A program made the position numbers and the translations under genes. Positions 17,779 through 34,510 of a DNA stretch of 64,000 nucleotides are shown in pieces. Each line of letters begins with the position of its first letter. Position 1 is the first letter of the stretch. The DNA is from Terriglobia bacterium (GTDB lineage: Bacteria; Acidobacteriota; Terriglobia; Bryobacterales; Bryobacteraceae), in assembly GCA_016650235.1 (NCBI GenBank), contig JAENWC010000140.1, positions 1 through 64,000 of the forward strand. The letters run 5' to 3'. Below the pieces are notes generated by a model, which was given only the letters and a program-made list of their open reading frames with translations, was not told where the DNA came from and did not search any database.

Positions 17779-18664
17779 CGGAAAGCCCTCGGAGGACGGA
17801 CTCGATGTACTCTCTGGCGCGGCGGGCCAAGCGGTCTACGCTTGCGGGGTCTTTGGGACGGGGCACAAGGGGCTCGAAGATATTTTCAAACGCGAGCGGC
17901 ATGGTGAGCCCGGTGCGCATCACTGTGGAGAGAAGCTTGTAGTGATCGATCTCGCCGAAGCCGGGGCCGCAATCCTCGTCTTTGGGTATGTTGCGATGAT
18001 CCTTGATGGCGAAGGCGCGGATGTCGCGCCAGCACTGCGCGATGTCGGGGAGGGGGTCGGCGCTCTCGTAGTCCAGCACATTTCCGGCGTCGTAGCACAT
18101 CCGGACTCCTTCGCCGGCGACTTCGCGCAGGATACGGCTGATGTGTTGCCCGGTGGCGGTATTACCGCCATGCTGTTTGACGACCAGCGTCACACCGGCT
18201 TTGCGGGCGAGAGGACCGGTCTGTTGGAGGCAGCGGATCACGTTCGCGTGGCCGCCTCCTTCCGTCTTGCCGAAGACGATGATGAAGGGGATGCCGGCGG
18301 CGGCGGCTTGTTCGATTCTGCGCGTGTAAGCATCGACGGCTTCGGGAGCTTCGAGGTTCACCATGGAGAACATAATCACCGGCGCGAGGCCGTGATCGCG
18401 GCAAAGTGAGTTCAACTCGCGCGCGCGTTGCGGAGGGGCTGAGACATCGAGGAGCGGAGCGCGATTGCCGGCGGGGTCAACGTGCGTGGTGCCCCAGGCG
18501 ATGTAGCGGTAGTCGGCGGCACGGATACCCTCCAGAGCGCGCAGGAATGGAAACGGGGCGTAGGGCAAGCTCATGCAGGCGAGTTGAAACTGAGTGGGTG
18601 CGGGAACGGATTGCGCCGCCGCGAGCATCGGAATGGAAAGAATCTCTCGCCGGGTGATACTCAT
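17750..18664 (-). CDS. Secreted sugar isomerase/epimerase-like TIM barrel protein
   Basis: 304 residues. MSITRREILSIPMLAAAQS is a Tat-like signal (RRE followed by a short hydrophobic core), a pattern common for this family in Acidobacteria. The mature part is a xylose-isomerase-like TIM barrel: VIMFSMVNLEAPE and VVKQHGGN in the middle, MCYDAGNVLDY, AFAIKDHR and LAFENIFEP at the metal/substrate positions. The ATG overlaps the stop of the upstream metallohydrolase gene (ATGA), so they form an operon. Substrate unknown. Confidence 0.75.
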   Translation of the reverse strand: MSITRREILSIPMLAAAQSVPAPTQFQLACMSLPYAPFPFLRALEGIRAADYRYIAWGTTHVDPAGNRAPLLDVSAPPQRARELNSLCRDHGLAPVIMFSMVNLEAPEAVDAYTRRIEQAAAAGIPFIIVFGKTEGGGHANVIRCLQQTGPLARKAGVTLVVKQHGGNTATGQHISRILREVAGEGVRMCYDAGNVLDYESADPLPDIAQCWRDIRAFAIKDHRNIPKDEDCGPGFGEIDHYKLLSTVMRTGLTMPLAFENIFEPLVPRPKDPASVDRLARRAREYIESVLRGLSATTANSPQA

Positions 18665-20718
18665 TCTTGTGCCTTCCTTTGATAGATGTCGCGGGCGCGA
18701 GTGAACAGTTCCACTACTTCACGCTTGCGCTCGGGGGTTGAGAAGCGGCCGCGCTGGCCGACGCGCTGGATCAATCCGTCGATCCATTGAACAAAGAACT
18801 TTGCATCGCCGGGCGAGGCGATGGGCTGCTTGCCGAGGTACACATAGACGGGACTGGTATGGGCAAAGGCGGCGGTATCGTTGAGGACGAGGCGGTGGGC
18901 CGGGCCAGTAGCGCGAACGGCTATCCAGGAGCTACGGTCAAGCGTGATGGTGCTGGTAATGCCGGGAAAGGGCTTGCCGTTGACGATCAATTCGATCTTG
19001 TCGATGGGGACCTTGGAGTCCACCTTGAGGACTACTGGAATACGCTGTGGTCCGGACGGGAGATGAATCTCATCGCCGGGCTCACGGTCCTGCACGCGGA
19101 GGGAAATCATAGGCCCATTGGTGGCGAAGGTGCGGCCCTGGCGGAAGGCGCGGACCCAGTCAATAGGGTTCATGCGGCCAGCAAGATGGGCGTAGACGCG
19201 GCCGCCGCCGGGCGTGTAGTGATCGGCGACGTTGGTAAATGAGTCCGTGCCGGCGGAAATGCCGAGGCGGAATCCGCAATTGAGGAGTTTGTACCAGAGA
19301 TCGAGAGCGACTTCTTCGGGGTTGTTACTGAGGACATCCATGGCATCGACCTCGCCGAGCGCGAGGTCAACGGGAAGTTCGCGCGCGCTGGCTCCATCGA
19401 GTGTGGGGGCGTAGCCGGGATGGGCATAGGTGACGGCTCCACCCTGGGCACGAGCGGCTTTGGCCTGGGTGAAGTTGGGCGGGTAATCGTCGGATTGCGG
19501 AGTTCCGGCAAAGCCTGTGTAGAGAGGTTCCACCAATCGTTTGAGATTGAACAGGCACATATGCCCGTAGAGGCCGGCGTTGCGCATCTCCTCATTCCAA
19601 TAAAGAACATAATCACGAGTGGAGAGGGGATGGGGTTTACCGCTAAACAGCGCGGTATCGTGGAGGAATGCGCCGAACGAGTTGGCGACCATCATGTTGG
19701 CGTAGTGAAGATCTTCGGCGTGGGCGTACAGTTGCACGTCCTGGGCAGTTACAACCTGATGATGATCGGCTGTGTAATTGGCGTGTATATGTGCGTCCGA
19801 GGAGTACCAGTTTGTAGCGGCCATGTTAGTCCATCGCTTGAGCCCGAGAGTAACATCGGTTGGGGCTTGCGGATGGAGGCGGACCTGTTTTGTTACGAGC
19901 TCATATTCGAGGCCGCGGGTAGCTTCGATGGTGGTTTCGCCGGCGGGGAGATCCATTTCAAAGCTGCCGCGGGCGTGGAAGTAGGGCTCGGCCGGGAGGG
20001 CGGCGAAGCGAGAGATTGCGCCCCGCGGGGCATAGGCAAGGCCGTCGGCCGCGGTGAGATAAAGGCGCGCGGCGGCGGGCTTGCCGTTCTCATCCACAAT
20101 CTTGACGCGCAAGCGGGCGAGAGGGCGGACATCGAAGGCGGCCTCGACGCCGTCGAAAGTGCGCTTGACCATTGCTCCCGATCCTGTGCCGGGCTGCGTC
20201 TCGAAGACCTTGTAGGCTACTCCCTTGCCTGCGCGCACCGAGAGAAGATTGAAGATTCGATTTTGCGCGATGACATAGGGAGGATTGCCTGGCCGCAAAA
20301 GGTCCGGCGCGTCGAGCTTGTCAAACTCACGAACCTTGAACACAAAACGGTCGCGCAGGGCCTGCATTCGGGCGGCGTTGGAGCGGCGGCGCATGAGGAG
20401 GCGGGCCATGTCACCGAATCCGATCTCGCCTTCGACATCGATCTGGTCGAGGCCGTTGTGATTGACCCAGAAGGTGAGATCCTCGTGGCCCGCGCGGGAC
20501 AAGGAAACGGCCCCCTGGCCGGCCACGACGGGAAACCGGAGCGCGGCGATCAGAAGCAGGGTGATGGCGACTGTGAGGTAAAAAGGTCTTTTGAGTAAAA
20601 CGCGCAAAACGGAGCCTGCTCCGTTCGGCCTGAGTCGAAGTTTCCCATCTGTTTGGAGCCGCGCTCCGACGGAAGGTGTGGTGGCCGGCGGTTGCTCCGG
20701 TGCAGGCAAGTAGCTCAT
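18661..20718 (-). CDS. CehA/McbA-type metallohydrolase, membrane-anchored
   Basis: 685 residues. One transmembrane segment (RPFYLTVAITLLLIAALRF) lies near residues 44-62. A beta-rich region follows, then a PHP-like domain with the metal motif SSDAHIHANYT, VTYAHPGYAPTL, and later GISAGTDSFTN and RTFATNGPMISL. This is the CehA/McbA group (carbaryl and amide hydrolases). The segment before the membrane helix contains sequence of an interspersed repeat (20594-20667) read in frame, giving AGSVLRVLLKR. The ATG overlaps the stop of the methyltransferase upstream. A second, shorter relative is encoded at 46810-48357. Probably faces the periplasm; substrate unknown. Confidence 0.75.
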   Translation of the reverse strand: MSYLPAPEQPPATTPSVGARLQTDGKLRLRPNGAGSVLRVLLKRPFYLTVAITLLLIAALRFPVVAGQGAVSLSRAGHEDLTFWVNHNGLDQIDVEGEIGFGDMARLLMRRRSNAARMQALRDRFVFKVREFDKLDAPDLLRPGNPPYVIAQNRIFNLLSVRAGKGVAYKVFETQPGTGSGAMVKRTFDGVEAAFDVRPLARLRVKIVDENGKPAAARLYLTAADGLAYAPRGAISRFAALPAEPYFHARGSFEMDLPAGETTIEATRGLEYELVTKQVRLHPQAPTDVTLGLKRWTNMAATNWYSSDAHIHANYTADHHQVVTAQDVQLYAHAEDLHYANMMVANSFGAFLHDTALFSGKPHPLSTRDYVLYWNEEMRNAGLYGHMCLFNLKRLVEPLYTGFAGTPQSDDYPPNFTQAKAARAQGGAVTYAHPGYAPTLDGASARELPVDLALGEVDAMDVLSNNPEEVALDLWYKLLNCGFRLGISAGTDSFTNVADHYTPGGGRVYAHLAGRMNPIDWVRAFRQGRTFATNGPMISLRVQDREPGDEIHLPSGPQRIPVVLKVDSKVPIDKIELIVNGKPFPGITSTITLDRSSWIAVRATGPAHRLVLNDTAAFAHTSPVYVYLGKQPIASPGDAKFFVQWIDGLIQRVGQRGRFSTPERKREVVELFTRARDIYQRKAQE
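20594..20667 (-). repeat. Interspersed palindromic repeat, copy A (inside a CDS)
   Basis: The minus strand carries the core GCTCCGTTTTGCGCGT, shared with copies at 31488 and 33845. It is flanked by two palindromes: GGAGC-GCG-GCTCC at 20667-20655 and CGGAGC-AG-GCTCCG at 20623-20610. It is translated within the metallohydrolase gene. A REP/BIME-like or palindromic coding element is possible. Confidence 0.7.
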
Positions 20719-21251
20719 GCGGAGGCCTCGATGAGTGCGCGGTATTTGCGCAACAGTTCATAAATGACGACGCCGCCGGCAGTTGCGACGTTGAGCGAAT
20801 GTTTATGGCCGAGCATGGGAATGCGGACGAAGGTATCGGCCATTTCGAGCAAATGAGGTTGAATGCCATCGACCTCGTGCCCAAACAGCAGGCAGACGGG
20901 AAACCGGGGCCGCCAGTCGAACAGATCGACGGAACGCGGGCTGGTCTCGATAGCGGCAATCTCCCAATATTGCTGCGCGAACCGTTTGAGGATGGCGGAC
21001 GGATCCCAGGTATGTTCCCAGGGAAGGCGGTCTTCGGCGCCGAGGGCCGTTTTGGTGATCTCCTTTTTAGGAGGTTTGGCCGTGATCCCGGACAGCACGA
21101 TTTTCTCGATGGCGGCGGCATCGCCGGTGCGAAAGAATGATCCGACGTTGTACATGCTCCGGACATTGTCTAACACGACGGCCACCGGCAGGGTTTTGAT
21201 GTGCTCATAGGAGGCCGCCGCGTGTGTAGCGAGGAAAGGAGTTCGTTCCAT
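20715..21251 (-). CDS. SpoU/TrmH-family RNA methyltransferase
   Basis: 178 residues with the three SPOUT signatures in order: VVLDNVRSMYNVGSFFRTGD (motif 1), LLFGHEVDGI (motif 2) and IPMLGHKHSLNVATAGGVVI (motif 3). These bind S-adenosylmethionine through the trefoil knot; Arg in motif 1 and Asn in motif 3 are the usual catalytic-site residues. It lacks the extra N-terminal substrate-binding domain of RlmB and is closer to small TrmH/TrmL-like 2'-O-methyltransferases acting on tRNA or rRNA. The target nucleotide is not determined. It overlaps the metallohydrolase gene by 4 bases. Confidence 0.85.
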   Translation of the reverse strand: MERTPFLATHAAASYEHIKTLPVAVVLDNVRSMYNVGSFFRTGDAAAIEKIVLSGITAKPPKKEITKTALGAEDRLPWEHTWDPSAILKRFAQQYWEIAAIETSPRSVDLFDWRPRFPVCLLFGHEVDGIQPHLLEMADTFVRIPMLGHKHSLNVATAGGVVIYELLRKYRALIEASA

Positions 21252-21401
21252 GATCCGTTAAATGGAGGTTATCACCGGTTGGGGGGTGGTTGTCTGGTTC
21301 GGTGGCGGACGTATCCGGAAAGTGGACCGGCCAGGCGCCAGCTCCCCGCGAAACGCGCAAAGTAAGACGCTCCCTATGGTCGCGGCTTTGGTAAATTCCC
21401 T

Positions 21402-23969
21402 TCACTTGGCGTCGCGCCAGTTGGGGCCTGAACCTGTGTCGGCTACGAGGGGAACTTCCAGGGGATGGACCGATTCCATGTGAGAGCGGACCATTTCACG
21501 GAGAGGCTCGACCTCTTCGGGCGGGGCTTCCAGGACCAGTTCATCATGGACCTGGAGGAGCATGCGGGACTGCCAGCCGGTTTGCAGCTCTTTGTGGATT
21601 TGGATCATGGCGAGCTTGATGAGGTCGGCGGCGGAGCCCTGGAGCGGAGTGTTTACGGCGGTACGTTCGGCAAAGCCGCGGGCATTGTTGTTGCGGCTGG
21701 CAATGTCGGGGATGGGGCGGCGGCGTCCGAACAGAGTGCGGGTGAAGCCGGATGCGCGGACCTCCTCGATGGTCTTATCGATAAAGGCTTTCACTCCGGC
21801 ATAGCGGGCAAAGTAGCTCTTGATGTAGCGGTCGGCTTCCTGGCGGGGGATGCCGAGTTGGGCGGCGAGGCCGAAGGAACTGAGTCCATAGATGATGCCG
21901 AAATTGACGGCTTTGGCGTTGCGGCGCATTTCGGGGGAGACCAGGAGGGGCATGACGCCGAAGACTTCGGAGGCGGTGCGGGTGTGAATGTCTTCGCCTT
22001 GACGGAAGGCGTCGAGCAGGACCGGGTCGAGGGAGAGGTGTGCCAGGAGGCGGAGTTCGATTTGGGAGTAGTCGGCGATAACGAGCGTCCAGCCGGGCTG
22101 GGGGACGAAGGCGGCGCGGATCTGGCGGCCGAGTTCGGTGCGGATGGGAATGTTCTGGAGATTGGGATTGGAAGAAGAGAGGCGGCCGGTGGCGGCTCCG
22201 GCGGGATTGAATGTGGTGTGCAGGCGGCCGGTGGCGGGACGAATGAGGGCGGGGAGGGCATCGACATAGGTGCCCTTGAGCTTGGAAAGCTGCCGGAATT
22301 CGAGGACGAGGCGCGCGATGGGGTAAGCTTCGGCGAGCGATTCGAGGACGTCAGCGGCGGTGGAGACGGCTTTTTTGCCGCGCGAGGGCGGGGAGGGGAG
22401 TCCAAGATCCTCAAACAAAACCTTGCCTAATTGTTGTGGTGAGTTGATGTTGAAGGGCTGTCCGGCGAGGGCGCAAATTTCGGCGGTAAGGCGCTGGATC
22501 TCGAGTTCCATGCTTTGGGACATGGAATGGAGGGCGGCGGGGTCGATGCGGATGCCGGTCTGCTCCATCCGGGTGAGGACGGGGATGAGGGGCAGGTCGA
22601 TGGATTGGTAGACGGACTGGAGACCCTGCGCGGCGACCTCGGCGGAGAGGCGTGTGGAGAGGGCGAGAGTATTGGCGGCTGCCTCTTCGATGCTTGGGCC
22701 GGGCTTGCGTTCGAGGTAACGGCTTGCGACGGCCTCGGGGGTGCAAGAGGTGGGGTCTGCGGTTAGGAGGAAGGCGTAGAGCAAGACGTCGTGTTGGAAG
22801 CCTTGGGGGTTGATGCCATGCCGGGCGAGCTGGAGGTTCAGCGTTTTGAGGTCGTGTGCGGCTTTGGGGCGAGTGGGGTCTTCGAGCAGCGGGCGAAGGT
22901 CCGGGAAGAGTTCGGGGCCGAGGCCGCAGGCTTCGTTTGGGTTGGCGGAGAGGGCCATTCGTTGGGTGGTGAGAAGACCCTCGCCTTCGGCGGAGAGGGC
23001 CACGGCGACAGGTGAGGCTTTGTGAAGCGCTGTGAGCCAGGCGGCGAGTCCGGATTGGGATTCGATGGATTGGATTTGAAGGGTTTGGGCTGGGGCGGTG
23101 GGGGTGAGGTCGCGGATGAGGCTAAAGAACTCCATTTCCGCATAGAGCTTGTGGAGGGCTTCGGGGTCGGGCTGTTGGGCAGTGATATCGGAGAGCTCGC
23201 AGGGGATGGGAACTTGGGTGGCGATGGTGGCGAGGCGCTTGCTGAGTTCGATTTGAGGGCGGTTGTTTTCGAGGCTTTCGCGGTAGCTTTTTCGCTGAAC
23301 TTCGGAGGCGCGCTCCATGGCGGCTTCGACGGAGCCGAATTGCACGATGAGGTCGCGCGCGCCCTTGTCGCCGATGCCGGGGGCGCCGGGGATGTTGTCG
23401 ACGGCGTCGCCTTTGAGGGCAAGCAGGTCGGGGACCTGATGCGGTGCCACGCCGAGGAACTCTTCCACTTTGGGCGGATCGTACCACTCGTCGTTTTTGG
23501 CGGGGTTGAGCATGCGAACGCGGTCATTGACGAGTTGGAGCATGTCTTTGTCGGAGGAGACGATGACGACTTCCGTGCCGGCGGCGGAAGCGCGCTGGGA
23601 GAGCGTTCCGATGACGTCATCGGCCTCATAGCCGGGGAATTCGAGAATGGGAATGCGGAGGGCCTGGAGGAGTTGGCGGACGTAGGGGATTTGCTGAAGG
23701 AGTTCGGGAGGAGTTTCGGTGCGATTGGCTTTGTAGGCGGTGAACTCCTGTTCGCGGAGCGTGGGACCTTCGGATTCAAAAACGGCGGCGAGGTATTCGG
23801 GCTTGTAGGCAGAGAGGACACGGCGGAGCATGTTGTTAAAGATGAAGACGGCTTCGGTGGGGATGCCGGACTGGGTGCGCATGGGGGGCGCGCCGGAGCG
23901 TGCTCGGGCGTGGTAGGCGCGAAAGAGGAAACCGAAGGTATCGAACAGGAAGAGGCGGGGGCTGGACAT
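21402..23969 (-). CDS. polA: DNA polymerase I
   Basis: 855 residues. The N-terminal 5'-3' exonuclease shows FLFDTFGFLFRAYHA, FPGYEADDVIG, VSSDKDML and GDAVDNIPGAPGIGDKGA. The C-terminal family A polymerase has DYSQIELRLLAHL (motif A), RRNAKAVNFGIIYG (motif B) and QVHDELVLE (motif C). In between, the 3'-5' exonuclease domain is present in outline, but its DxE motif is not recognisable in the segment ASPVAVALSAEGEGLLT, and the second motif reads AHDLKTLN. Proofreading is therefore probably lost, as in Thermus enzymes. Role: Okazaki fragment processing and repair. It lies downstream of a Gfo/Idh gene, separated by a perfect inverted repeat. Confidence 0.95.
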   Translation of the reverse strand: MSSPRLFLFDTFGFLFRAYHARARSGAPPMRTQSGIPTEAVFIFNNMLRRVLSAYKPEYLAAVFESEGPTLREQEFTAYKANRTETPPELLQQIPYVRQLLQALRIPILEFPGYEADDVIGTLSQRASAAGTEVVIVSSDKDMLQLVNDRVRMLNPAKNDEWYDPPKVEEFLGVAPHQVPDLLALKGDAVDNIPGAPGIGDKGARDLIVQFGSVEAAMERASEVQRKSYRESLENNRPQIELSKRLATIATQVPIPCELSDITAQQPDPEALHKLYAEMEFFSLIRDLTPTAPAQTLQIQSIESQSGLAAWLTALHKASPVAVALSAEGEGLLTTQRMALSANPNEACGLGPELFPDLRPLLEDPTRPKAAHDLKTLNLQLARHGINPQGFQHDVLLYAFLLTADPTSCTPEAVASRYLERKPGPSIEEAAANTLALSTRLSAEVAAQGLQSVYQSIDLPLIPVLTRMEQTGIRIDPAALHSMSQSMELEIQRLTAEICALAGQPFNINSPQQLGKVLFEDLGLPSPPSRGKKAVSTAADVLESLAEAYPIARLVLEFRQLSKLKGTYVDALPALIRPATGRLHTTFNPAGAATGRLSSSNPNLQNIPIRTELGRQIRAAFVPQPGWTLVIADYSQIELRLLAHLSLDPVLLDAFRQGEDIHTRTASEVFGVMPLLVSPEMRRNAKAVNFGIIYGLSSFGLAAQLGIPRQEADRYIKSYFARYAGVKAFIDKTIEEVRASGFTRTLFGRRRPIPDIASRNNNARGFAERTAVNTPLQGSAADLIKLAMIQIHKELQTGWQSRMLLQVHDELVLEAPPEEVEPLREMVRSHMESVHPLEVPLVADTGSGPNWRDAK

Positions 23970-23990
23970 GCAGTTTCTATGTTAATGGAT

Positions 23991-24046
23991 GTAGGATAGG
24001 CCTCCTGGATCGGGTGAGCGGCGGAAGGACAGGAGGCCTATCCTAC
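23991..24046. repeat. Perfect 17-bp inverted repeat
   Basis: The left arm at 23991-24007 (GTAGGATAGGCCTCCTG) and the right arm at 24030-24046 are exact reverse complements, with a 22-base loop. The right arm includes the TAG stop of the oxidoreductase gene. The polA start is 22 bases beyond the left arm. No T-tract follows on either strand, so it is not a canonical intrinsic terminator. Confidence 0.85.
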
Positions 24047-25305
24047 TTGGGCGTTCCCCAGTGCGGGCGGTATTGCCGGCGGGTCATCGCCTGGGCTTCC
24101 GGGTCAGAGAGGATGGATTCGGTTTTTCCGTCGTAGTTGAGGTTGCGGCCGGTGCGCGCGCAGATGTTGCCGAGGTGACAGAGCGCCGTGGAAAGGTGGC
24201 CCTCCTCTATCTCGCAATTCGGCTTCTTGCGGGAGATCACACACTCGATGAAATTCTGGATGTGGCGCTCGGGCTCATTCTCCTCGACATGCTCGACGAG
24301 GGCGCCTTTGCGGTCAAAGACTTTGTAGCCCCAAGGCCCGGTCCAGTCGCCAATGTGCATTACGCCGCCGGAGCCGTAGACGGCCACGCCGTTGTCGATG
24401 CCTTCCAGAGGATACGGGGTCCAGATGCGCATCTCCCACTGGATGGCCTTGCCGCCGAAATCGAAGGTGAGGTTCATGGTGTCCGGCGTCTGCTGGTCGT
24501 CGTCGAAGAAAAGCTTGGCACCCATGCCGCTCACCCGGCGCGGCGCGGACTCGCCCAGCGCCCAGCGCGCGATGTCGATCTGGTGTGCGCCGTCGTTGCC
24601 CATATCGCCGGTGCCGAAATTCCAGTGCCAATGCCAGTCGTAATGGAAGCGGTTTTCGTTAAACGGGATCATCGGGGCGGGCCCGACCCAGGTGTCGTAA
24701 TCGAGGCCGGGCGGAGGTGGCGAGTCTGGCTTGCGGCCAATGTTCCGGCGCAGTTGCGTGTTCCAGGCCTTGGCCATGAGGACGCGGCCGAGCCGGCCCG
24801 AGCGGGCGATTTCGATGGCCTTGATAGTGGTTGCGCGGCTGCGGGACTGGAGTCCGGCCTGCACGATGCGCTGATTGCGCCGCGCCGCTTCCACCAACAG
24901 ACGGCCCTCGCGCAGATTGTGCGATACCGGTTTCTCGACGTACACGTCCTTGCCGGCGTCGCAGGCGAGGATGGCGGCGGGGGCGTGCCAGTGATCCGGC
25001 GTGGCGATGATGACCGCGTCCACGTCGCGGTCCGCCAGGAGCCGGCGCATGTCGGCGCTGGCCTTGACGCCCGCCGCGCCGGACTGAAACGCGAGTTGCT
25101 GGGCCTTTTCGAGCCGCGCCGGGTCAACGTCGCAGACATGGGTGAGGACGGCCTTGGGCGTTTGCGCCGTCACGCGTAGCAACGCCGTTCCGCGCCCGCC
25201 GACTCCGATGATGCCGACCCGGACCTGGTCCTGGGCAGCGAAGACGGGGCGGATTGCAGCCGCGCCGGCCGCCGCGAGAAAATACCTGCGGTTGTTCGGA
25301 TTCAT
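24043..25305 (-). CDS. Gfo/Idh/MocA-family oxidoreductase with Tat-type signal
   Basis: About 420 residues from MNPNNRRYFLAAAGAAA; the RRYFLAAAGAAAIRPVFA leader looks like a twin-arginine signal, common in this family in Acidobacteria and Planctomycetes. The Rossmann fold opens VRVGIIGVGGRGTALL. The EKPVSHNL motif carries the catalytic-region lysine (EKP). GNDGAHQIDIARWALG supplies the typical D/H catalytic pair region. I preferred the ATG at 25305 over 25326 because it begins the signal. NAD(P)-dependent sugar or inositol oxidoreductase activity is the family norm; the substrate is unknown and the cofactor outside the cytoplasm is unresolved. Confidence 0.85.
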   Translation of the reverse strand: MNPNNRRYFLAAAGAAAIRPVFAAQDQVRVGIIGVGGRGTALLRVTAQTPKAVLTHVCDVDPARLEKAQQLAFQSGAAGVKASADMRRLLADRDVDAVIIATPDHWHAPAAILACDAGKDVYVEKPVSHNLREGRLLVEAARRNQRIVQAGLQSRSRATTIKAIEIARSGRLGRVLMAKAWNTQLRRNIGRKPDSPPPPGLDYDTWVGPAPMIPFNENRFHYDWHWHWNFGTGDMGNDGAHQIDIARWALGESAPRRVSGMGAKLFFDDDQQTPDTMNLTFDFGGKAIQWEMRIWTPYPLEGIDNGVAVYGSGGVMHIGDWTGPWGYKVFDRKGALVEHVEENEPERHIQNFIECVISRKKPNCEIEEGHLSTALCHLGNICARTGRNLNYDGKTESILSDPEAQAMTRRQYRPHWGTPK

Positions 25306-25353
25306 ATTTGAAAGCCATTCTAGCAAGCCATGGCCGCGGATGGACGCGGATCG

Positions 25354-26895
25354 CTACTTGATGCCGAACAGGCCGGGGCGGGCCAGTTTGTACTGGAAGC
25401 GGGCGGGGTTGACGGCGGTGGCTCCGGGGGAATCGACGTAGACGATTTGGGCGGCTACCGGTTCGTAGGCGGCGCGCGGGGCGATGGTGCCTTTGGCGAC
25501 GAGGATTTTCATGCGGTGGGGATAGATGCCGCAACTGATGAGTTGGTTGAGGCTGTTGGGGCTGGAGCGCTCGGTGGTGAGCAGGAGGATATTGGGGAGG
25601 TCGCGGGTGGAACCTTCGGCCTCAATCACCACTGCCAGGCCGAGCTCGTGGTAGCGTGCTCCGCCGTGGCGGACTTCGGTTTCGATGTAGTTGCCGTCAT
25701 GCATGGATTTGACGCGGCCGCGGATGCGGACCGGTTTGCCGTGCATGTTGTCGGTCTTGCCGCCGACGGCCATGTCGAATGTCCCGCCGATGCCGGCTTT
25801 GACGGCGGCCTTGACGGCGGCGGGATCGGCGATGACGAAGACCCATCCGGTGGCTTTCTGTTTGATCAGTTCGTCGAGGATGAAGGTGCTGTCGCCGGCG
25901 GAGCCGCCGCCGATGTTATCGCCGGTGTCCATCAGAGCGATGGGGAACTTGGGTGCGGCCATGGCGGACTTAACGGCTTGGGCCGGCGATGGGATGTTGA
26001 GCTTCAACTGGTCGCGAACGTTCCAGATCATGTCCGCGATGCGTTTGGCCTCACGATCGGCCAGTGCCTGATCGTTGTTGGTGGCGACGACGACGGCGGG
26101 ACCGGTCCAGGGAACATCGCCGTACTGATAGCCGCCGTTGGCGCTGGCGGCGAGCACTTTGGGATTCTTTTCGAGTTCGATGGTTGCCTGGGCGATGGGG
26201 AGGAACGGATTCTGGTAGGTATTGTGAAAAATGATGTTGTAGATCATGGGCGGCTTGACCACGGCCTTGGTGACCTTGACCTTGCCGCTAAGAATGCCGT
26301 TCATGATGCGGGCCGCCTGTATGCCGCGCTCCTTGGTGTCGAGGTGTGGCACCTGCTTGTAGGTGATGAGCACAGTGGCGAGTTTAACTGTCTCCGGCGA
26401 GATGTTGGCGTGGTAGTCGTGAACGACGATGATGGGCAACTGATCGCCGAACGCCTTGCGCATGCGGCGCATGGTTTCCTCGTCGCCATGGGGATGGCCT
26501 TCGACGACCATGGCTCCGTGAAGGGCGAGCAGGATGCCGTCGATCTTGCCCAGGCTTTTGAACTTGGCGATCAGGCGCGCCGTGATGGTGTTGTAGGTGT
26601 CGGCGGTGAGCGGGCCCTTGGGAGTGGCGTCGGCATGGAGGGCCGGGAGAAGCTCGAAGCCTTGCTCTTTTCCGCCGGCGATGAAGCCGGCCACATCGCT
26701 GCTGGAGCGGCCCCAGAGGTCCAGCGGGTCCTCGGTCATTTTGCCGGCTTCCTGGATGGTGTAGTCGGCGAGGGTTGTTTTTGCCGGATTGAAGGAGTTG
26801 GATTCGTGCTTGAATCCGCCAATGGCGACGCGGAACTTGGCGTGGAGGGCGGAGGCGGAAAGCAGGAGAAAGAGAAGAAGGAGACGCTGTACCAT
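25354..26895 (-). CDS. Exported M81-family (MlrC-like) metallopeptidase
   Basis: 513 residues, signal peptide MVQRLLLLFLLLSASALHA. The mature start FRVAIGGFKHESNSFNP is the typical MlrC N-terminus. ILLALHGAMVVEGHPHGDEE and VVHDYHANISPE carry metal-site Asp/His residues. The C-terminal MlrC domain contains LMDTGDNIGGGSAGDSTFIL. The family includes the microcystin-degrading peptidase MlrC; most members have unknown substrates. No overlapping neighbours on its strand. A TATAGT sequence 7 bases upstream of the ATG would imply a very short or absent leader. Confidence 0.85.
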   Translation of the reverse strand: MVQRLLLLFLLLSASALHAKFRVAIGGFKHESNSFNPAKTTLADYTIQEAGKMTEDPLDLWGRSSSDVAGFIAGGKEQGFELLPALHADATPKGPLTADTYNTITARLIAKFKSLGKIDGILLALHGAMVVEGHPHGDEETMRRMRKAFGDQLPIIVVHDYHANISPETVKLATVLITYKQVPHLDTKERGIQAARIMNGILSGKVKVTKAVVKPPMIYNIIFHNTYQNPFLPIAQATIELEKNPKVLAASANGGYQYGDVPWTGPAVVVATNNDQALADREAKRIADMIWNVRDQLKLNIPSPAQAVKSAMAAPKFPIALMDTGDNIGGGSAGDSTFILDELIKQKATGWVFVIADPAAVKAAVKAGIGGTFDMAVGGKTDNMHGKPVRIRGRVKSMHDGNYIETEVRHGGARYHELGLAVVIEAEGSTRDLPNILLLTTERSSPNSLNQLISCGIYPHRMKILVAKGTIAPRAAYEPVAAQIVYVDSPGATAVNPARFQYKLARPGLFGIK

Positions 26896-27021
26896 GGACT
26901 GACTATACTACAGAATCGCCACAGGTCTGGGTGCAAAGTGTGGTTAATGGGACACAGTAGTACTCCCTCAGTTTCGATATTTGTCAAGCAGTTAGCTATC
27001 GGTATTCGAATTGCAACATAA

Positions 27022-27951
27022 GTGGTTTACTGGATCCGGGTGGTTTGGGGAGAGGGCAGTCTGAGATACGAAACGACGATACAGCGGGCGGTTGAGACGA
27101 CGGGCGTGGGACTGCACAGCGGGGTCCCGGTATCGATACGGATCAAGCCAGCGCCGCCATCGACAGGGATCGTGTTTCTGCGGAGCGATCTGGAGCATTT
27201 CCCGATTCCGGCCAGCTACCGGCACGTGGCGAAGGTGAGTTATGCGACGAGCCTGATGCGGCAAGGCGTGTTGATTTCTACGACAGAGCATTTGCTGAGT
27301 GTGTTCTACAGCATGGGGATCGATAACGTGCTGGTGGAGATCAACAATCTGGAGGTGCCGATTCTGGACGGGAGCGGGGAACCGTTTGTGGAGTTGATAC
27401 GAGGGGCGGGGATCAGGACGTATAGGAGACGGCGGCGCTATTTAAGGGTACGGCGGCCGGTGAGTGTGGAGGGGAACGGGAAGCGGATCACGATACTGCC
27501 GGCGGACCGGTTTCTGTTGACCTGCGATATTTACTTTGACCATCCGCTGGTGGGCAAGCAGTCGCTGGAGATGGAAGTGACGCCGGAGAATTATGCACGG
27601 GAGATTGCGCCGGCGCGGACGTTCGGTTTTGAGCATGAGCTGGACCAGATGCGGGACATGGGGCTGATCCGCGGAGCTACGCTGGAGAGCGCTGTTTGTT
27701 TTGACCGCAGCAGGGTGTTGAATCCGGGCGGGCTGCGATTTCCGGACGAGTGCTGCCGGCACAAGGCGTTGGACCTGATCGGGGACTTGGCGCTGATCGG
27801 GCGGCCGCTGCTGGGACACGTGATCGCGGAGCGGGCCGGGCATGCGATGCACGTGGCGCTGGTATCGAAGATCATGTCGGACCCGTCATTGTACGAGGTG
27901 CTGAGCTTCGATCAACTGGCCACGCGCGTGACGCATGCGTTGGTGAGCTGA
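27022..27951 (+). CDS. lpxC: UDP-3-O-acyl-N-acetylglucosamine deacetylase
   Basis: 309 residues as given (GTG start). It catalyses the committed step of lipid A synthesis in the cytoplasm. Visible motifs: TTGVGLHSG near the N-terminus, the zinc ligand in TTEHLLS (His90), EVPILDGSG, FVELI, and RHKALDLIGDLALIG (His247, Asp251), then GHAMHVALV (His274, general acid). The true start is uncertain: the conserved domain begins at RYETTIQR, and a CTG at 27061 has a strong GGAGAGGG just upstream, so translation could start there. It begins a forward cluster of envelope genes. Confidence 0.93.
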   Translation: MVYWIRVVWGEGSLRYETTIQRAVETTGVGLHSGVPVSIRIKPAPPSTGIVFLRSDLEHFPIPASYRHVAKVSYATSLMRQGVLISTTEHLLSVFYSMGIDNVLVEINNLEVPILDGSGEPFVELIRGAGIRTYRRRRRYLRVRRPVSVEGNGKRITILPADRFLLTCDIYFDHPLVGKQSLEMEVTPENYAREIAPARTFGFEHELDQMRDMGLIRGATLESAVCFDRSRVLNPGGLRFPDECCRHKALDLIGDLALIGRPLLGHVIAERAGHAMHVALVSKIMSDPSLYEVLSFDQLATRVTHALVS

Positions 27952-27962
27952 TCGGACCGAGC

Positions 27963-28514
27963 TTGCGCCTCCTGATTTGGATCCCCAGTCTTGTTTCGTT
28001 GTCGCGTCTTGCGATGACGCCCGTGGTGGCGCTTGCAATTCTGGATCACCGGTATGGGGCAGCGCTGGTGTGGTTCATTGCAGCGGCATTCACCGACATC
28101 ATCGACGGGTATCTGGCGCGGCGGTTCGGGTGGATGACGCAAGCCGGGGCATGGCTGGATCCGCTGGCCGACAAGGCGATGCTGGTGACCATCTATGCGT
28201 TTCTCTGGATGGCGGGGGCGATCCCGGCGTGGCTGGCGGGGCTGATTTTTGGACGGGACATTCTGATCCTTGTGATGGTGGGGGCAGCACTCGCGTTGAC
28301 CAAGCTGCGGGAATTTCCACCATCGCAATGGGGCAAGTTCTGCACGTTTTCACAGATTGTGACGGCGGTGACAGTGATGGTGCACGGGGGCGGGCTGCTG
28401 GAGGGGCTGGAGGTGGTGTTGCAGGTGATGTTTGTGGTTGCGGGGGGAATGACGGGCATCAGCGGGGCGCATTATTTTTATGGCGGAGTGAGGCGGTGGA
28501 TGGGGAAAGATTGA
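27963..28514 (+). CDS. pgsA: CDP-alcohol phosphatidyltransferase, PgsA-like
   Basis: About 183 residues from a TTG at 27963, chosen because it yields MRLLIWIPSLVSLSRLAMTP, the usual PgsA N-terminus. The upstream reading frame overlaps lpxC. The complete family motif DG-x2-AR-x8-G-x3-D-x3-D is visible as DGYLARRF...GAWLDPLAD. At least four membrane segments follow. It probably makes phosphatidylglycerophosphate from CDP-diacylglycerol and glycerol-3-phosphate, but related enzymes for other alcohols cannot be excluded. It starts 12 bases after lpxC and is probably cotranscribed. Confidence 0.8.
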   Translation: MRLLIWIPSLVSLSRLAMTPVVALAILDHRYGAALVWFIAAAFTDIIDGYLARRFGWMTQAGAWLDPLADKAMLVTIYAFLWMAGAIPAWLAGLIFGRDILILVMVGAALALTKLREFPPSQWGKFCTFSQIVTAVTVMVHGGGLLEGLEVVLQVMFVVAGGMTGISGAHYFYGGVRRWMGKD

Positions 28515-28558
28515 CTCCGGGGGCGGGCGAATGTAGTCTTAAGAAAGGTGGGAGCCAG

Positions 28559-29125
28559 ATGACCCGGTACAGTCCATCCCGGAACTACTTGACGGCAGGC
28601 TTGGTGGCCTTGGCGCTGAGCGGGATATCGGGTTGGATGACGGTACGGTGGCCGGTGTCGATTGTGCCGGCGATCCTGTTCTGCATCACCGCACTTTTGC
28701 TGCTGTTCCTGGCCAGCCGGCCGGGCATTGAGATCCACGCGCGTCATCTGCGGGTGGGCAATCGCGTGATCGCGTGGGGCGAGATACATGCGGTGGACCT
28801 GACGGGATGGACCTCGCCTTTGATCGTAAATATAACGCTGGCGGATAAGTCCCGATTGTTGCTGGTCTATCCGGCGGATCTGGATTCGGCGGTGAACCTG
28901 TTGCGGCATTTGCGGAAGATGGTGCATAACGCATTGATCGATGGGATTCCCTATGCGGAGTATTGGAGTGAGGAAACGGCGGAAGGGAACAGTTCGTCAG
29001 CGCAGCCGGCACTGCCGCGGTATCCGCTGTTAGGCGAGGAAGATGAGGCCGAAGTGGAGCGGCTGTACCAGCGCTTGAAATCGGTGGGTCATCTGGATCC
29101 GAAGAACGGCCCGGAAGAGAGTTAA
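28559..29125 (+). CDS. Small membrane protein with PH-like domain
   Basis: 188 residues from an ATG preceded by AAAGGTGGGAG. Two transmembrane segments (LTAGLVALALSGISGWMTV and VPAILFCITALLLLFLA) are followed by IEIHARHLRVGNRVIAWGEI and LADKSRLLLVYPADL, a pattern like bacterial PH domains. The C-terminal 60 residues are acidic and probably disordered. Function unknown; the position between phospholipid and lipid-export genes suggests an envelope role. Confidence 0.65.
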   Translation: MTRYSPSRNYLTAGLVALALSGISGWMTVRWPVSIVPAILFCITALLLLFLASRPGIEIHARHLRVGNRVIAWGEIHAVDLTGWTSPLIVNITLADKSRLLLVYPADLDSAVNLLRHLRKMVHNALIDGIPYAEYWSEETAEGNSSSAQPALPRYPLLGEEDEAEVERLYQRLKSVGHLDPKNGPEES

Positions 29126-29128
29126 TCC

Positions 29129-29722
29129 TTGCGCCCAGGCCTGCGCAATGGTGCGGCGGTGGTCATGCTTGCGGCGGCCTTATTGAGCGCAACGCATGCG
29201 TGGTGGCTGGCCGGATTGGGGAGCTACCTGGTGCAGGCGGAAGCGCCGGAAAAGGCCGAAATCATAGTGGTGCTGGCTGGGGATTCGCATGGTCACAGGG
29301 TGCTGAAAGGCGGGGAACTGGTGCGTGGCGGGTTTGCGCGGCGCGCGCTGGTGAGCGGGCCCGGTCCTCATTACGGGCACAGCGAGGACGAGTTAGCGAT
29401 CCCGTTTGCGGTACGGCATGGTTACCCGGAGAGCTACTTCGAAGGTTTCCCTATTCGGGCTCATTCCACGCTTGAGGAATCGGGGCTAGTGGTTGCGGAA
29501 CTGCGGCGGCGGGGCATACATAAGGCGATGGTGGTGACCAGTGACTATCACACGCGGCGGGCGGGGAGAATGTTCCGGTCGGCGGCTCCTGATTTAGAGA
29601 TTGTGATCGTGGGAGCGCGGGATGAATGGTTCCGGGCGAATGACTGGTGGAAGAGGCGCGAGGCGCAGAAGACGTTTCTATTGGAGTGGGCTAAAACTGT
29701 GGCGTCGTATCTTGGGATTTAG
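29129..29722 (+). CDS. YdcF-like DUF218 protein
   Basis: 197 residues from TTG. One N-terminal membrane segment (GAAVVMLAAALLSATHAWWLA), then the DUF218 fold: IIVVLAGDSHGHR, RALVSGPGP, AHSTLEESGLVV and VVTSDYHTRRAGRMF. The order of the Asp/His/Arg residues matches the family linked to envelope polysaccharide or lipid-carrier metabolism (E. coli ElyC, SanA). It starts 3 bases after the preceding stop and is followed 3 bases later by the ABC exporter, so it belongs to the envelope operon. Confidence 0.8.
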   Translation: MRPGLRNGAAVVMLAAALLSATHAWWLAGLGSYLVQAEAPEKAEIIVVLAGDSHGHRVLKGGELVRGGFARRALVSGPGPHYGHSEDELAIPFAVRHGYPESYFEGFPIRAHSTLEESGLVVAELRRRGIHKAMVVTSDYHTRRAGRMFRSAAPDLEIVIVGARDEWFRANDWWKRREAQKTFLLEWAKTVASYLGI

Positions 29723-29725
29723 ACG

Positions 29726-31468
29726 ATGAAGGAATCGTTTCGCACGCTGGCGCCGCTACTTTGGGTTCACCGGAGAGGTCTGGGGCTTGGGATGGGATCG
29801 CTGGTGCTGAAGGATCTGCTGGGAGCGGCGCTTCCACTGGTGATCAAGGCTGGGGTGGACGGGCTGAGGGAGGGGTTCAGGTTTCAGAGCCTGTTGTGGT
29901 TCGGGGTAGCGCTGCTGGGCTTGTCGGCGGCCAAGGGGTTCTTTCAATATTGGATGCGGGTGCAGTTGATCGGCATCTCACGCGACATTGAATACGACTT
30001 GCGCAACCGTCTGTTTGGGCATCTGATGCGGATGGATCACGGGTTTTATTCGCGGTACCGGACGGGGGACATCATGGCGCGGGCCACGAACGATCTGAAC
30101 GCGGTGCGAATGATGTTGGGTCCGGGGATCATGTATTGGACCGAGACGTCGTTGACGTTTGTGCTTGCGGTGGCTGTGATGTTGTACACGGACTGGCAAT
30201 TGACGTTGGTGGCATTGGCTCCGGCGCCGCTGGTGAGCGTGGCGGTGATCGTATTTGGGCGGAAGATCCATGCAAGGTTTGAGAAGATCCAGGCATTGTT
30301 TTCCGACATCAGCAGCCGGGTGCAGGAGAATCTATCCGGAGTGCGCGTGATCCGCGCGTACGTGCAGGAAGAGGCGGAGATGGAGCAGTTCGCGCGGCTG
30401 AACCAGGACTACATCGGGCAGAATCTGAAGCTGGGCGTAACTTCTGGGTTATTCATGCCAATGCTGGAGGCGCTGATCGGGATGGCGTTTCTGATTGTGC
30501 TGTGGGCGGGCGGAAAACGTCTATTGGATGGGGAAATCACGCTCGGCAGTTTCATGATGTTCAACGTGTACATGGGGATGTTGACCTGGCCGATGATTGC
30601 GATGGGGTGGGTAGTGAATCTGATGCAGCGCGGCAAGGCGTCGGTGGAGCGGCTGAATGAGATCTTCCAGCAGCAGCCGGACATTGCCTCGCGTGAGAGG
30701 GCGCGGCGGCTGGGCGGGACGGTGCGCGGGGAGATCGAATTTCGAAATGTCCGGGTCCGTTATGGCGCGGGAGTAGCGTTAAACGGGGTGAGTCTGAAGC
30801 TGGAGGCGGGGCAGACGGTGGCGATTGTGGGGCACACCGGGAGCGGCAAGAGCACGCTGGTACAACTGATTCCGCGGCTGATTGATCCGAGCGAAGGCAC
30901 GGTGCTTCTGGATGGAGTGGATCTGCGGGAACTGGACCCGGCCGAGCTGCGCCATCAGATCGGATTTGTGCCGCAGGAGACATTTCTGTTCAGCGCGACA
31001 TTGCGGGAAAACATCGCGTTCGGGGTAGAGACGGCGACGACGGAGGAGATTGAGCGCGCGGCCGGGATTGCGGGACTGGCGCCGGACATCGAGGGTTTCC
31101 CGGACGGGTTGAACACGCGAGTGGGCGAGCGCGGGATCACGCTGTCGGGCGGACAGAAGCAGCGAACCGCCATAGCGCGGGCGATTGTGCGCAATCCAAG
31201 GATTTTGATTCTGGATGACGCTTTGTCGAGCGTGGACACGCTGACGGAGGAACGGATTCTGAACCACCTATCGGGGATGATGCGCGGGCGGACCACCATT
31301 TTGATTTCGCACCGGGTGTCGACGGTACGGAACGCGGACCGGATATATGTGATTGAGAATGGGCAGGTGGCGGAATCGGGGACGCATGAGGAGTTGCTCA
31401 GGGCAGGGGGTTACTACGCGGATCTGCATCAGAAGCAGTTGCTGGAGGAGGAATTGGAAGCGATTTGA
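29726..31468 (+). CDS. ABC exporter, fused permease-ATPase (MsbA/MdlB type)
   Basis: 580 residues. The N-terminal half has six transmembrane segments (about 20-320). The nucleotide-binding half contains GHTGSGKST (Walker A), VPQETFLFS (Q-loop), TLSGGQKQR (signature), ILILDDALSSVD (Walker B) and ISHRVST (H-loop), all intact. It works as a homodimer or with a partner not encoded nearby. The context with lpxC, a phospholipid synthase and a DUF218 protein makes a lipid or lipopolysaccharide-precursor flippase plausible, but family members also export drugs and peptides. Confidence 0.88.
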   Translation: MKESFRTLAPLLWVHRRGLGLGMGSLVLKDLLGAALPLVIKAGVDGLREGFRFQSLLWFGVALLGLSAAKGFFQYWMRVQLIGISRDIEYDLRNRLFGHLMRMDHGFYSRYRTGDIMARATNDLNAVRMMLGPGIMYWTETSLTFVLAVAVMLYTDWQLTLVALAPAPLVSVAVIVFGRKIHARFEKIQALFSDISSRVQENLSGVRVIRAYVQEEAEMEQFARLNQDYIGQNLKLGVTSGLFMPMLEALIGMAFLIVLWAGGKRLLDGEITLGSFMMFNVYMGMLTWPMIAMGWVVNLMQRGKASVERLNEIFQQQPDIASRERARRLGGTVRGEIEFRNVRVRYGAGVALNGVSLKLEAGQTVAIVGHTGSGKSTLVQLIPRLIDPSEGTVLLDGVDLRELDPAELRHQIGFVPQETFLFSATLRENIAFGVETATTEEIERAAGIAGLAPDIEGFPDGLNTRVGERGITLSGGQKQRTAIARAIVRNPRILILDDALSSVDTLTEERILNHLSGMMRGRTTILISHRVSTVRNADRIYVIENGQVAESGTHEELLRAGGYYADLHQKQLLEEELEAI

Positions 31469-31487
31469 GCCCGCAAAGGGCCGCGAA

Positions 31488-31520
31488 GCAGGCTCCGTTT
31501 TGCGCGTGTTCCTTAAAGGA
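31488..31520 (+). repeat. Interspersed repeat, copy B (upstream of guaB)
   Basis: It shares GCAGGCTCCGTTTTGCGCG with copy A and differs from copy C by few bases in the following GTTCCTTAAAGGA. It lies in the 87-base gap between the ABC exporter and guaB, so it is not translated. Confidence 0.7.
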
Positions 31521-31537
31521 AGATGCGGCTGTGCTAA

Positions 31538-33013
<1,476 letters not shown>

Positions 33014-33018
33014 GCGGG

Positions 33019-34470
33019 TCATGCGCCTTGGCCCGTGACTTGTGTCTTCAGTTTGCCTTTCCACAAGCGTATGTCGAGCTCGGTTCCGGTCCGGATGGAA
33101 GCGGCTTCGGTGACGATGTGGCCATGGCTGTCCTGGACGATAGCGTAGCCGCGTTCAAGAATTCGCAAGGGGCTCAGTTGGGTGAGGGATGCGGAGAGGG
33201 CGTCGAGGCGGCGCATGGCCGGAGATAAGGCGGCTTGCATGGATTGTTCGAGCGATGCTTGGAGCTGTTGCAGGCGGCGGTGAGCGGCTAACACTCTGAC
33301 CCGGAGATCGCGCTCACGGAGCCTGGAGTCGAGGGCCTGTCAAATTTTACGGCGCTCGATCAGGCGGGCTCGCAGGATCTCGCGTCCGGCGGACTCGAGT
33401 TCATCCACGCGCTGGCCAGCCCGCCCGAGGCGCCGGGTGAGGATAGCGTTGGCGCGTTGCACGCCTTGTTGTTCAAGCCGCGCGGAGGCGCGCGCGAGGC
33501 AGAGGCGCAGGGCACGCTCCTGGCGGAGAGCAGCGGAATCGATTTGGTCGAGGATATCGGTTTTGGGGCGGACCACGAGTTCGGCCGCGGCCGAAGGGGT
33601 GGGCGCGCGGAGGTCGGCGGTAAAGTCGGCGATGGTGAAATCGGTTTCGTGTCCGACGGCGGAGATGATGGGGATGGGGCAGGCGGCGATGGCTCGGGCG
33701 ACGGCTTCCTCATTGAAGGTCCAGAGGTCTTCGAGCGAACCGCCGCCGCGTCCGAGGATGAGCACATCGGCCCAGCCGGAAGCGCAAAGGGCGCCGTCCG
33801 CGCCCCCAAACTGTTCAGAAACACGCGAGTTGCCGATGCGGGCGGCAGCTCCGTTTTGCGCGTGTTCTTTAAGAGAGGAGAAGTATTCGATCGCCTCGAC
33901 CACGGCCTCGACAGAACCTGCGCCTTGCACCGTGGCGGGGTAAAGCCGGATGTGAAGACCGGAGTGGCGGCGTTCGATCACGTTGAGTATGTCGCGGATC
34001 ACGGCGCCGGTAGAGGAAGTGATAATGCCGATGCGCCGCGGGTAGGCGGGCAGGGGTTTCTTACGCTCGGGGGAAAAGAGGCCTTCAGCTTCGAGCTTGG
34101 TTTTAAGTTGCTCGAAGGCGAGCTGGAGTTGGCCGAAGCCCCGCGGTTCAAGCGTCTCCACGATGAACTGATATTCTCCGCGCGGCTCATAGACATCGAT
34201 GCGGCCGCGCGCCAGCACAGCGATGCCGTCGGCTGGTTTAAAGCGGATGAGGCGGAGCGAGTTTTTGTAACAGACGCTACGGAGCTGAGCGGCTTCGTCT
34301 TTGAGGGTAAAGTAGGCATGGCCGCTGGCGGGCGTTTTCGAGCCGGAGATCTCTCCAGCTACCCATATGTTGTTGAAGGAGTTAGCGAGTGTACCCCGAA
34401 TCTCGGCTGTGAGCTGGCTGACGGTGTAGATGCGTCTGACGGGCTCCCAATCTAACTTAATCTGTTCCAT
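33019..34470 (-). pseudogene. xseA: Exonuclease VII large subunit, interrupted by an in-frame TGA
   Basis: Codons 1-376 (34470-33343) encode the OB-fold N-terminus (YTVSQLTAEIRGTL, IWVAGEISG) and the catalytic part (GIITSSTGAVIRDI, VLILGRGGGSLEDLW, VGHETDFTIADF). A TGA at 33342-33340 follows LIERRKI. The same frame then continues QALDSRLRERDLRVRVLAAH to the family C-terminus LSPLRILERGYAIVQD. A single-base change such as CGA to TGA explains it; sequencing error or readthrough are alternatives. Residues about 199-232 are an insert absent from ordinary XseA and overlap repeat copy C. No xseB is seen nearby. The truncated form would lack the C-terminal coiled-coil/tail. Confidence 0.8.
33845..33877 (+). 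repeat. Interspersed repeat, copy C (inside xseA)
   Basis: The core GCTCCGTTTTGCGCGTGTTC occurs here on the plus strand, so xseA, on the minus strand, reads it as LKEHAQNGA. It forms the start of a roughly 33-residue insert between the YFS and ADVLILGRGGGS segments of XseA. Confidence 0.7.
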
Positions 34471-34483
34471 AATATTTTTCGAT

Positions 34484-34510
34484 TTGACGACTCCGCACCG
34501 ATCCTATAAC
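34484..34510 (+). promoter_or_regulatory. Possible glnA promoter
   Basis: TTGACG at 34484-34489 and TATAAC at 34505-34510 are separated by 15 bases, shorter than the usual 17. A further TATACT follows at 34513. AT-rich for this genome, and located between the divergent xseA and glnA. Sequence-only prediction. Confidence 0.35.

Follow-up and report, generated by a model that had tools for sequence, protein, structure and literature searches.

Does the palindromic repeat at the 5' end of a metallohydrolase gene belong to a mobile element that enters genes without breaking their reading frame, and is it translated there? The sequence-only reading had placed a repeat core with two palindromes inside this gene (copy A), had named two further copies (B and C, the latter in xseA) and had likened them to Rickettsia palindromic elements (RPEs). 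The relevant features of the window, i.e. the whole 64-kb stretch of DNA that was analysed, are the following.

18661 to 20718, minus strand: ORF of a CehA/McbA-family metallohydrolase with an N-terminal membrane helix (NF038032, E = 1e-55), copy A at its 5' end
20588 to 20670, minus strand: copy A, recognisable part of a palindromic element of about 93 bp, GGAGC-type subfamily, 5' end eroded
20600 to 20615, minus strand: 16-bp core GCTCCGTTTTGCGCGT of copy A
20610 to 20623, unstranded: palindrome CGGAGCAGGCTCCG in copy A, a local hairpin in folding
20655 to 20667, unstranded: palindrome GGAGCGCGGCTCC in copy A
20715 to 21251, minus strand: SpoU-family rRNA methylase, its stop codon overlapping the candidate ATG of the metallohydrolase (20718)
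31472 to 31518, plus strand: copy B, a short form of about 48 bp, intergenic between an ABC-type ORF (29726-31468) and an ORF at 31556-33013
33340 to 34470, minus strand: xseA (exonuclease VII large subunit), lengthened in frame by the 31 residues of copy C
33783 to 33875, plus strand: copy C, a young full-length 93-bp unit in xseA, antisense to the gene and with a family-typical body

Core and palindromes lie in ORF 18661-20718(-) as described and spell AGSVLRVLLKR, which precedes the hydrophobic helix; copies B and C are both real. In the 64-kb window alone the core gave a weak signal with 3 matches at ≤3 mismatches vs 1.4 expected. Genome-wide, in a draft of 6.08 Mb (86% complete), there were 258 matches at ≤2 mismatches vs 6 of the reversed control, and 155 vs 1 at ≤1 mismatch. 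Thus the idea that the core recurs only by chance is refuted. Copy A was 78-88% identical over 60-83 bp to 12 other loci. Its profile match reached weakly to 20681, about 12 bp on the left were eroded, and on its own it folded no better than shuffled sequences (z 0.44). By these alignments copy A classifies as a genuine, degenerate and 5'-eroded member of the GGAGC-type subfamily.

An iterated profile search of the core-bearing contigs (about 1.09 Mb including the window) yielded 144 matches; about 105 covered the full length. The unit starts with CGCAAAGGGC and ends with GCTCCGTTTTGCGCGTGTTCCTYARAAG; in the two youngest subfamilies it measures 93 bp (31 codons), and 78- and 90-bp units as well as short 42/48-bp forms also occur. 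Units form head-to-tail arrays with periods of mostly 93 bp, and 33 of the 45 measured periods were multiples of three. The terminal inverted repeats CGCAAA/TTTGCG, the small size, the high copy number and the absence of a gene inside are those of a miniature inverted-repeat element (MITE). Rfam had no match in region 20500-34500 at E up to 1, nor did a plasmid search return a match to the element.

Most representatives formed a single hairpin with its base at the termini, despite differing stem sequences. RNAalifold on the full MAFFT alignment found a 4-bp stem only, because the stems of the subfamilies vary in sequence and length; explicit pair counts therefore replaced it. Among 28 diverged copies and 25 named pairs, 81.7% of the cells were paired, vs 75.6% after shuffling and at most 54% after sliding; related sequences may beat shuffles without any structure, and the slid controls preserve relatedness. 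Changes on both sides were seen in all three helices, the loop-to-tail helix included. Compensatory loop/tail pairs were GGAACACG with CGTGTTCC, GGAACTCGC with GCGAGTTCC and AACAGCC with GGCTGTT, and compensatory stems were GCTCGCCGCG/CGCGGCGAGC vs GCCGTCCGCG/(T)GCGGACGGC. On average, loop and tail were complementary over a longest run of 6.5 nt, vs 3.9 nt for shuffled loops. At the level of predicted pairs, these counts show that stems and loop-tail pairing covary and that the 3' tail is complementary to the apical loop.

Copy C provided the clearest case of an insertion into a gene. XseA had a match in 38 other genomes, and in every one it aligned in two blocks with residues ~199-230 missing. 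Thus this segment is not ancestral. The orthologous codons yield Y-F-S-S-S-G-W as the empty site, over which this xseA has gained exactly 93 bp net. On the E. coli XseA structure 8txr the point of insertion lies between residues 193 and 198, immediately ahead of the strand that runs into GRGGGS.

Other in-gene copies were sought by a codon-usage scan for spanning ORFs with Pfam and by a search of concatenated segments against the same-genus genome G001. Seven further genes had in-frame copies missing from G001: the Lhr helicase, a FadJ-like protein, an EamA protein, a PSD1-type protein, Mfd, a histidine kinase and alanine racemase. The G001 forms of Lhr, FadJ-like and EamA were exactly 31 residues shorter, with contiguous DNA; about 34 residues were missing from the PSD1/PSCyt2 protein, about 32 from Mfd, about 29-30 from the histidine kinase and about 17 from alanine racemase (short form). 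Alanine racemase is usually essential; here (L092 1825-3147, contig C9) the short-form copy adds its ~17 in-frame residues near the LKIDSGLGRLG motif. A HicB-like antitoxin (L154 5797-6177, contig C520) has a full element of 31 codons where its N-terminal domain joins the C-terminal tail; it and one hypothetical protein are consistent with in-frame copies and stand outside the count of eight genes. Related metagenome-assembled genomes (MAGs) held two in-frame candidates, one a patatin-domain membrane protein. ORFs at L163, L129 and L131 were left out of the count for probable antisense position or N-terminal or C-terminal ambiguity. By this comparison of predicted proteins, at least eight different genes, some of them well conserved, hold the element without disruption of the frame.

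One might regard these segments as ancestral, poorly conserved loops of the host proteins that are merely alike. The low complexity of some inserts is all that speaks for it. Against it, one and the same DNA is read in different frames and from both strands in unrelated proteins, the inserts are near-identical to intergenic copies, and the orthologues are short by exactly the unit length. For XseA, Lhr, FadJ-like and EamA ancestral loops are refuted, and overall we give this explanation virtually no credence. Insertion of a mobile unit is the reading we retain.

Four of the six frames of the unit are free of stops. Ten in-gene copies used frames -0 (5), -2 (2), +2 (2) and +1 (1), and none of the ten lay in the two stop-containing frames of the main subfamilies, a result with a chance of about 0.02. 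This suggests, without proving it, that genic copies are the survivors of a selection by frame. With a unit length that is a multiple of three and four open frames, copies landing in these frames would become in-frame peptide inserts and survive, and others would be purged. That the open frames evolved as such is unsupported; they were no commoner than in shuffled sequence. Because only about 10 of 144 copies (~7% of those sampled, in a census of ~1.09 Mb of contigs picked for carrying copies) are genic, most genic insertions are probably purged or avoided.

The situation of copy A differs from that of xseA. Orthologues of the metallohydrolase start just upstream of the helix (G010 MNLLRGRGPVAV..., G024 MGRTPVAIT..., G001 probably MRFAPALAAL...), which places copy A at and upstream of what appears to be the ancestral start codon. 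Its translation is unproven, since orthologues have nothing to compare at this N-terminal position and the protein might begin farther downstream. Copy A may thus be an untranslated copy in the upstream region or 5' leader, with the protein starting inside or just after the element (e.g. at TTG ~20606) and the 45-residue N-terminal extension being an artefact of ORF calling. The beginning of the three orthologues right before the membrane helix agrees with this, as does the finding that N-terminal repetitive extragenic palindromes (REPs) often prove extragenic through start misannotation (PMC3733652). On the other hand, ATG 20718 overlaps the stop codon of the upstream methylase and is preceded by GAGG, a usual operon start, and the frame is open throughout the element. 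We consider a start at ATG 20718 with read-through of the element and a start within it about equally probable. The RPE-like reading stands for the family, with 31 extra codons in XseA and seven more genes in frame; its claim of in-frame translation is unproven for copy A.

To delimit the family, the 20-mer of the 3' end, GCTCCGTTTTGCGCGTGTTC, was searched as an exact match in 84,980 species genomes. Outside this genome it occurred only in eight Acidobacteriota MAGs (Bryobacterales where the order is named): SJ149, SZAS-6, RBC020, MAG-245, RYN_19, NC_groundwater_1572, GL140_2 and JOPF104. Each carried 4-57 copies at ≤2 mismatches, with a control of zero. A near-identical 19-mer was absent from 395 other sampled Acidobacteriota. 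The core at ≤1 mismatch was found 0-6 times in each of 60 relatives and not at all in the same-genus G001. Across the carriers the ends are conserved and the stems are lineage-specific. Judged by these carriers, this genome itself would fall within Bryobacterales. We are confident, short of certainty, that these copies make up a family of miniature palindromic elements that is mobile, lineage-specific and present in some of the Acidobacteriota. SJ149 also has a sister subfamily (L199 2882-2974, L217 2954-3046) with termini CTCGCACA/TGTGCGAG and tail GCGAGTTCC, whose units share arrays with those of the main type, in head-to-tail order. In IMG/VR a single viral contig (L177 5849-5866) had the exact core as an isolated 20-mer with no surrounding element, which is probably due to chance.

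The flanks of the copies bear on the mode of insertion. Left flanks showed a TYARAAG-like motif that resembles the element's own right end. No consistent target duplication was seen beyond AG/AAG; left and right flanks matched slightly more than shuffled pairs (p~0.001), which is compatible with a short or occasional duplication, and some single copies were flanked by 6-9 bp repeats. The data establish recent amplification, a precise gain of 93 bp, insertion next to a motif, and structure. The element would be moved in trans by a transposase that is likely to act on a folded single strand, in the manner of IS200/IS605 systems. Tandem arrays could then grow by insertion after an existing right end, as the right end would itself serve as a target site. 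Copy A came to lie at the 5' end of the metallohydrolase gene. Y1 transposases (PF01797) were found at 31 loci in nine genomes (this one and the eight relatives), none flanked by the element; the two Y1 classes tested as mobilisers were rejected. A gene-carrying composite with the element's ends was not present among the loci examined, which cover part of the genome; a single 3.4-kb candidate begins at a short degenerate copy and was not counted. Contig C160 of this genome (L175) contains an apparently intact RAYT-like (class 2) Y1 transposase with a 248-aa frame, with translated repeats of the HALVRAA(P/S)RL type on both sides, which are a different repeat family.

Two specific movers were also weighed. 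A conventional MITE, moved by a DDE transposase that duplicates its target and not by an HUH enzyme acting on single-stranded DNA, would fit the terminal inverted repeats CGCAAA/TTTGCG, the slight flank correlation and the 6-9 bp repeats at some copies. Yet most young copies are without a target duplication, the target on the left is similar to the right end, the head-to-tail arrays are exact and no composite parent was found, so that we regard a DDE enzyme as rather unlikely, if still a serious candidate. Far less probable is mobilisation by a class 3 TnpA_Y1 of the family described in Solibacter, with CnGA-foot structures. Read as its reverse complement, the element does have a main stem whose foot is CGGA, and class 3 genes are present in SZAS-6, NC_groundwater_1572 and JOPF104. 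But no such gene was found in this genome or SJ149, the two richest in copies. In SZAS-6 the repeat that comes after a class 3 gene is another one (CCGACTCGCTTACGCTCGCGGCTC), and four class 3 genes had no element-like core in the ~1.3 kb around them. Beside a class 3 TnpA_Y1 gene of SZAS-6 (L255 1819-1895), the repeat GACCGACTCGCTTACGCTCGCGGCTCAGAAACGG forms a tandem pair after the gene and fits the described CnGA-foot structures; the class 3 gene in L249 has a comparable structure at its flank. It is also conceivable, if doubtful, that the family is an entirely new class of mobile element, in which a length divisible by three and a pseudoknot-like loop-tail fold are maintained for spread in coding and non-coding DNA alike, and an undescribed enzyme reads the folded strand.

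How does the element relate to known systems? When set beside the generally known features of IS200/IS605-type (ISDra2-like) non-autonomous derivatives, it looks similar in that copies have a short target motif on their 5' side, which makes up the right end as well, lack a clear target duplication and contain a subterminal hairpin. It differs in that no TnpA with the element's ends was found and in its loose target motif of ~7 nt. RPEs, which are reviewed in PMC10969869 and PMC2229807 and also reported in Wolbachia, are likewise hairpin-forming repeats of about 100-150 bp in many copies. As in RPEs, in-frame inserts occur in unrelated protein genes (eight here) and are absent from orthologues, and N-terminal cases are ambiguous in both. 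In contrast to the alphaproteobacterial RPEs, the host is an acidobacterium, the unit is exactly 93 bp with loop-tail pairing and TYARAAG-flanked head-to-tail arrays, and ~7% of the sampled copies are genic, vs nearly half of RPE copies (PMC10969869). Nor does the element carry the CGTC end tag of RPEs (PMC3733652); its conserved ends are CGCAAAGGGC and GTTCCTYARAAG. The name Rickettsia palindromic element thus holds as an analogy only: in its action the element works like an RPE.

GTAG/CGTC REPs and RAYT/REPIN systems are also palindromic and sometimes intragenic in frame, and the intragenic REPs too favour replication and repair genes (PMC3733652), here xseA, mfd and lhr. Unlike these, the element has no GTAG or CGTC tag and a unit of 93 bp rather than 20-40 bp; it forms head-to-tail arrays instead of head-to-head dimers, and no RAYT is flanked by it. 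The repeats of the Solibacter usitatus class 3 TnpA_Y1, whose structures have a CnGA foot (PMC6006769), share the phylum, the high copy number, the structure and, on one strand, the CGGA foot. Their difference lies in the other repeat beside the class 3 gene and in the enzyme not being found in the element-richest genomes. The open-access literature, to which this survey was confined, has no mention of such an element in Acidobacteria.

Rickettsia is the best-known host of palindromic selfish DNA inserted in frame into conserved genes, and its reduced genome offered a ready excuse. The present soil-type acidobacterium is GC-rich, has a genome of 6 Mb and shows the phenomenon in at least eight genes; it has young copies, and relatives of the same genus that lack the element allow direct comparison. 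It thus becomes possible to test whether the inserts play a part in protein evolution or are simply tolerated. The boundary of TYARAAG and a 93-bp hairpin with tail-loop pairing is a discrete target for finding the mobilising enzyme. If the element did represent a new class, a free-living lineage would offer another case, independent of the first, of selfish DNA as a source of new protein segments.
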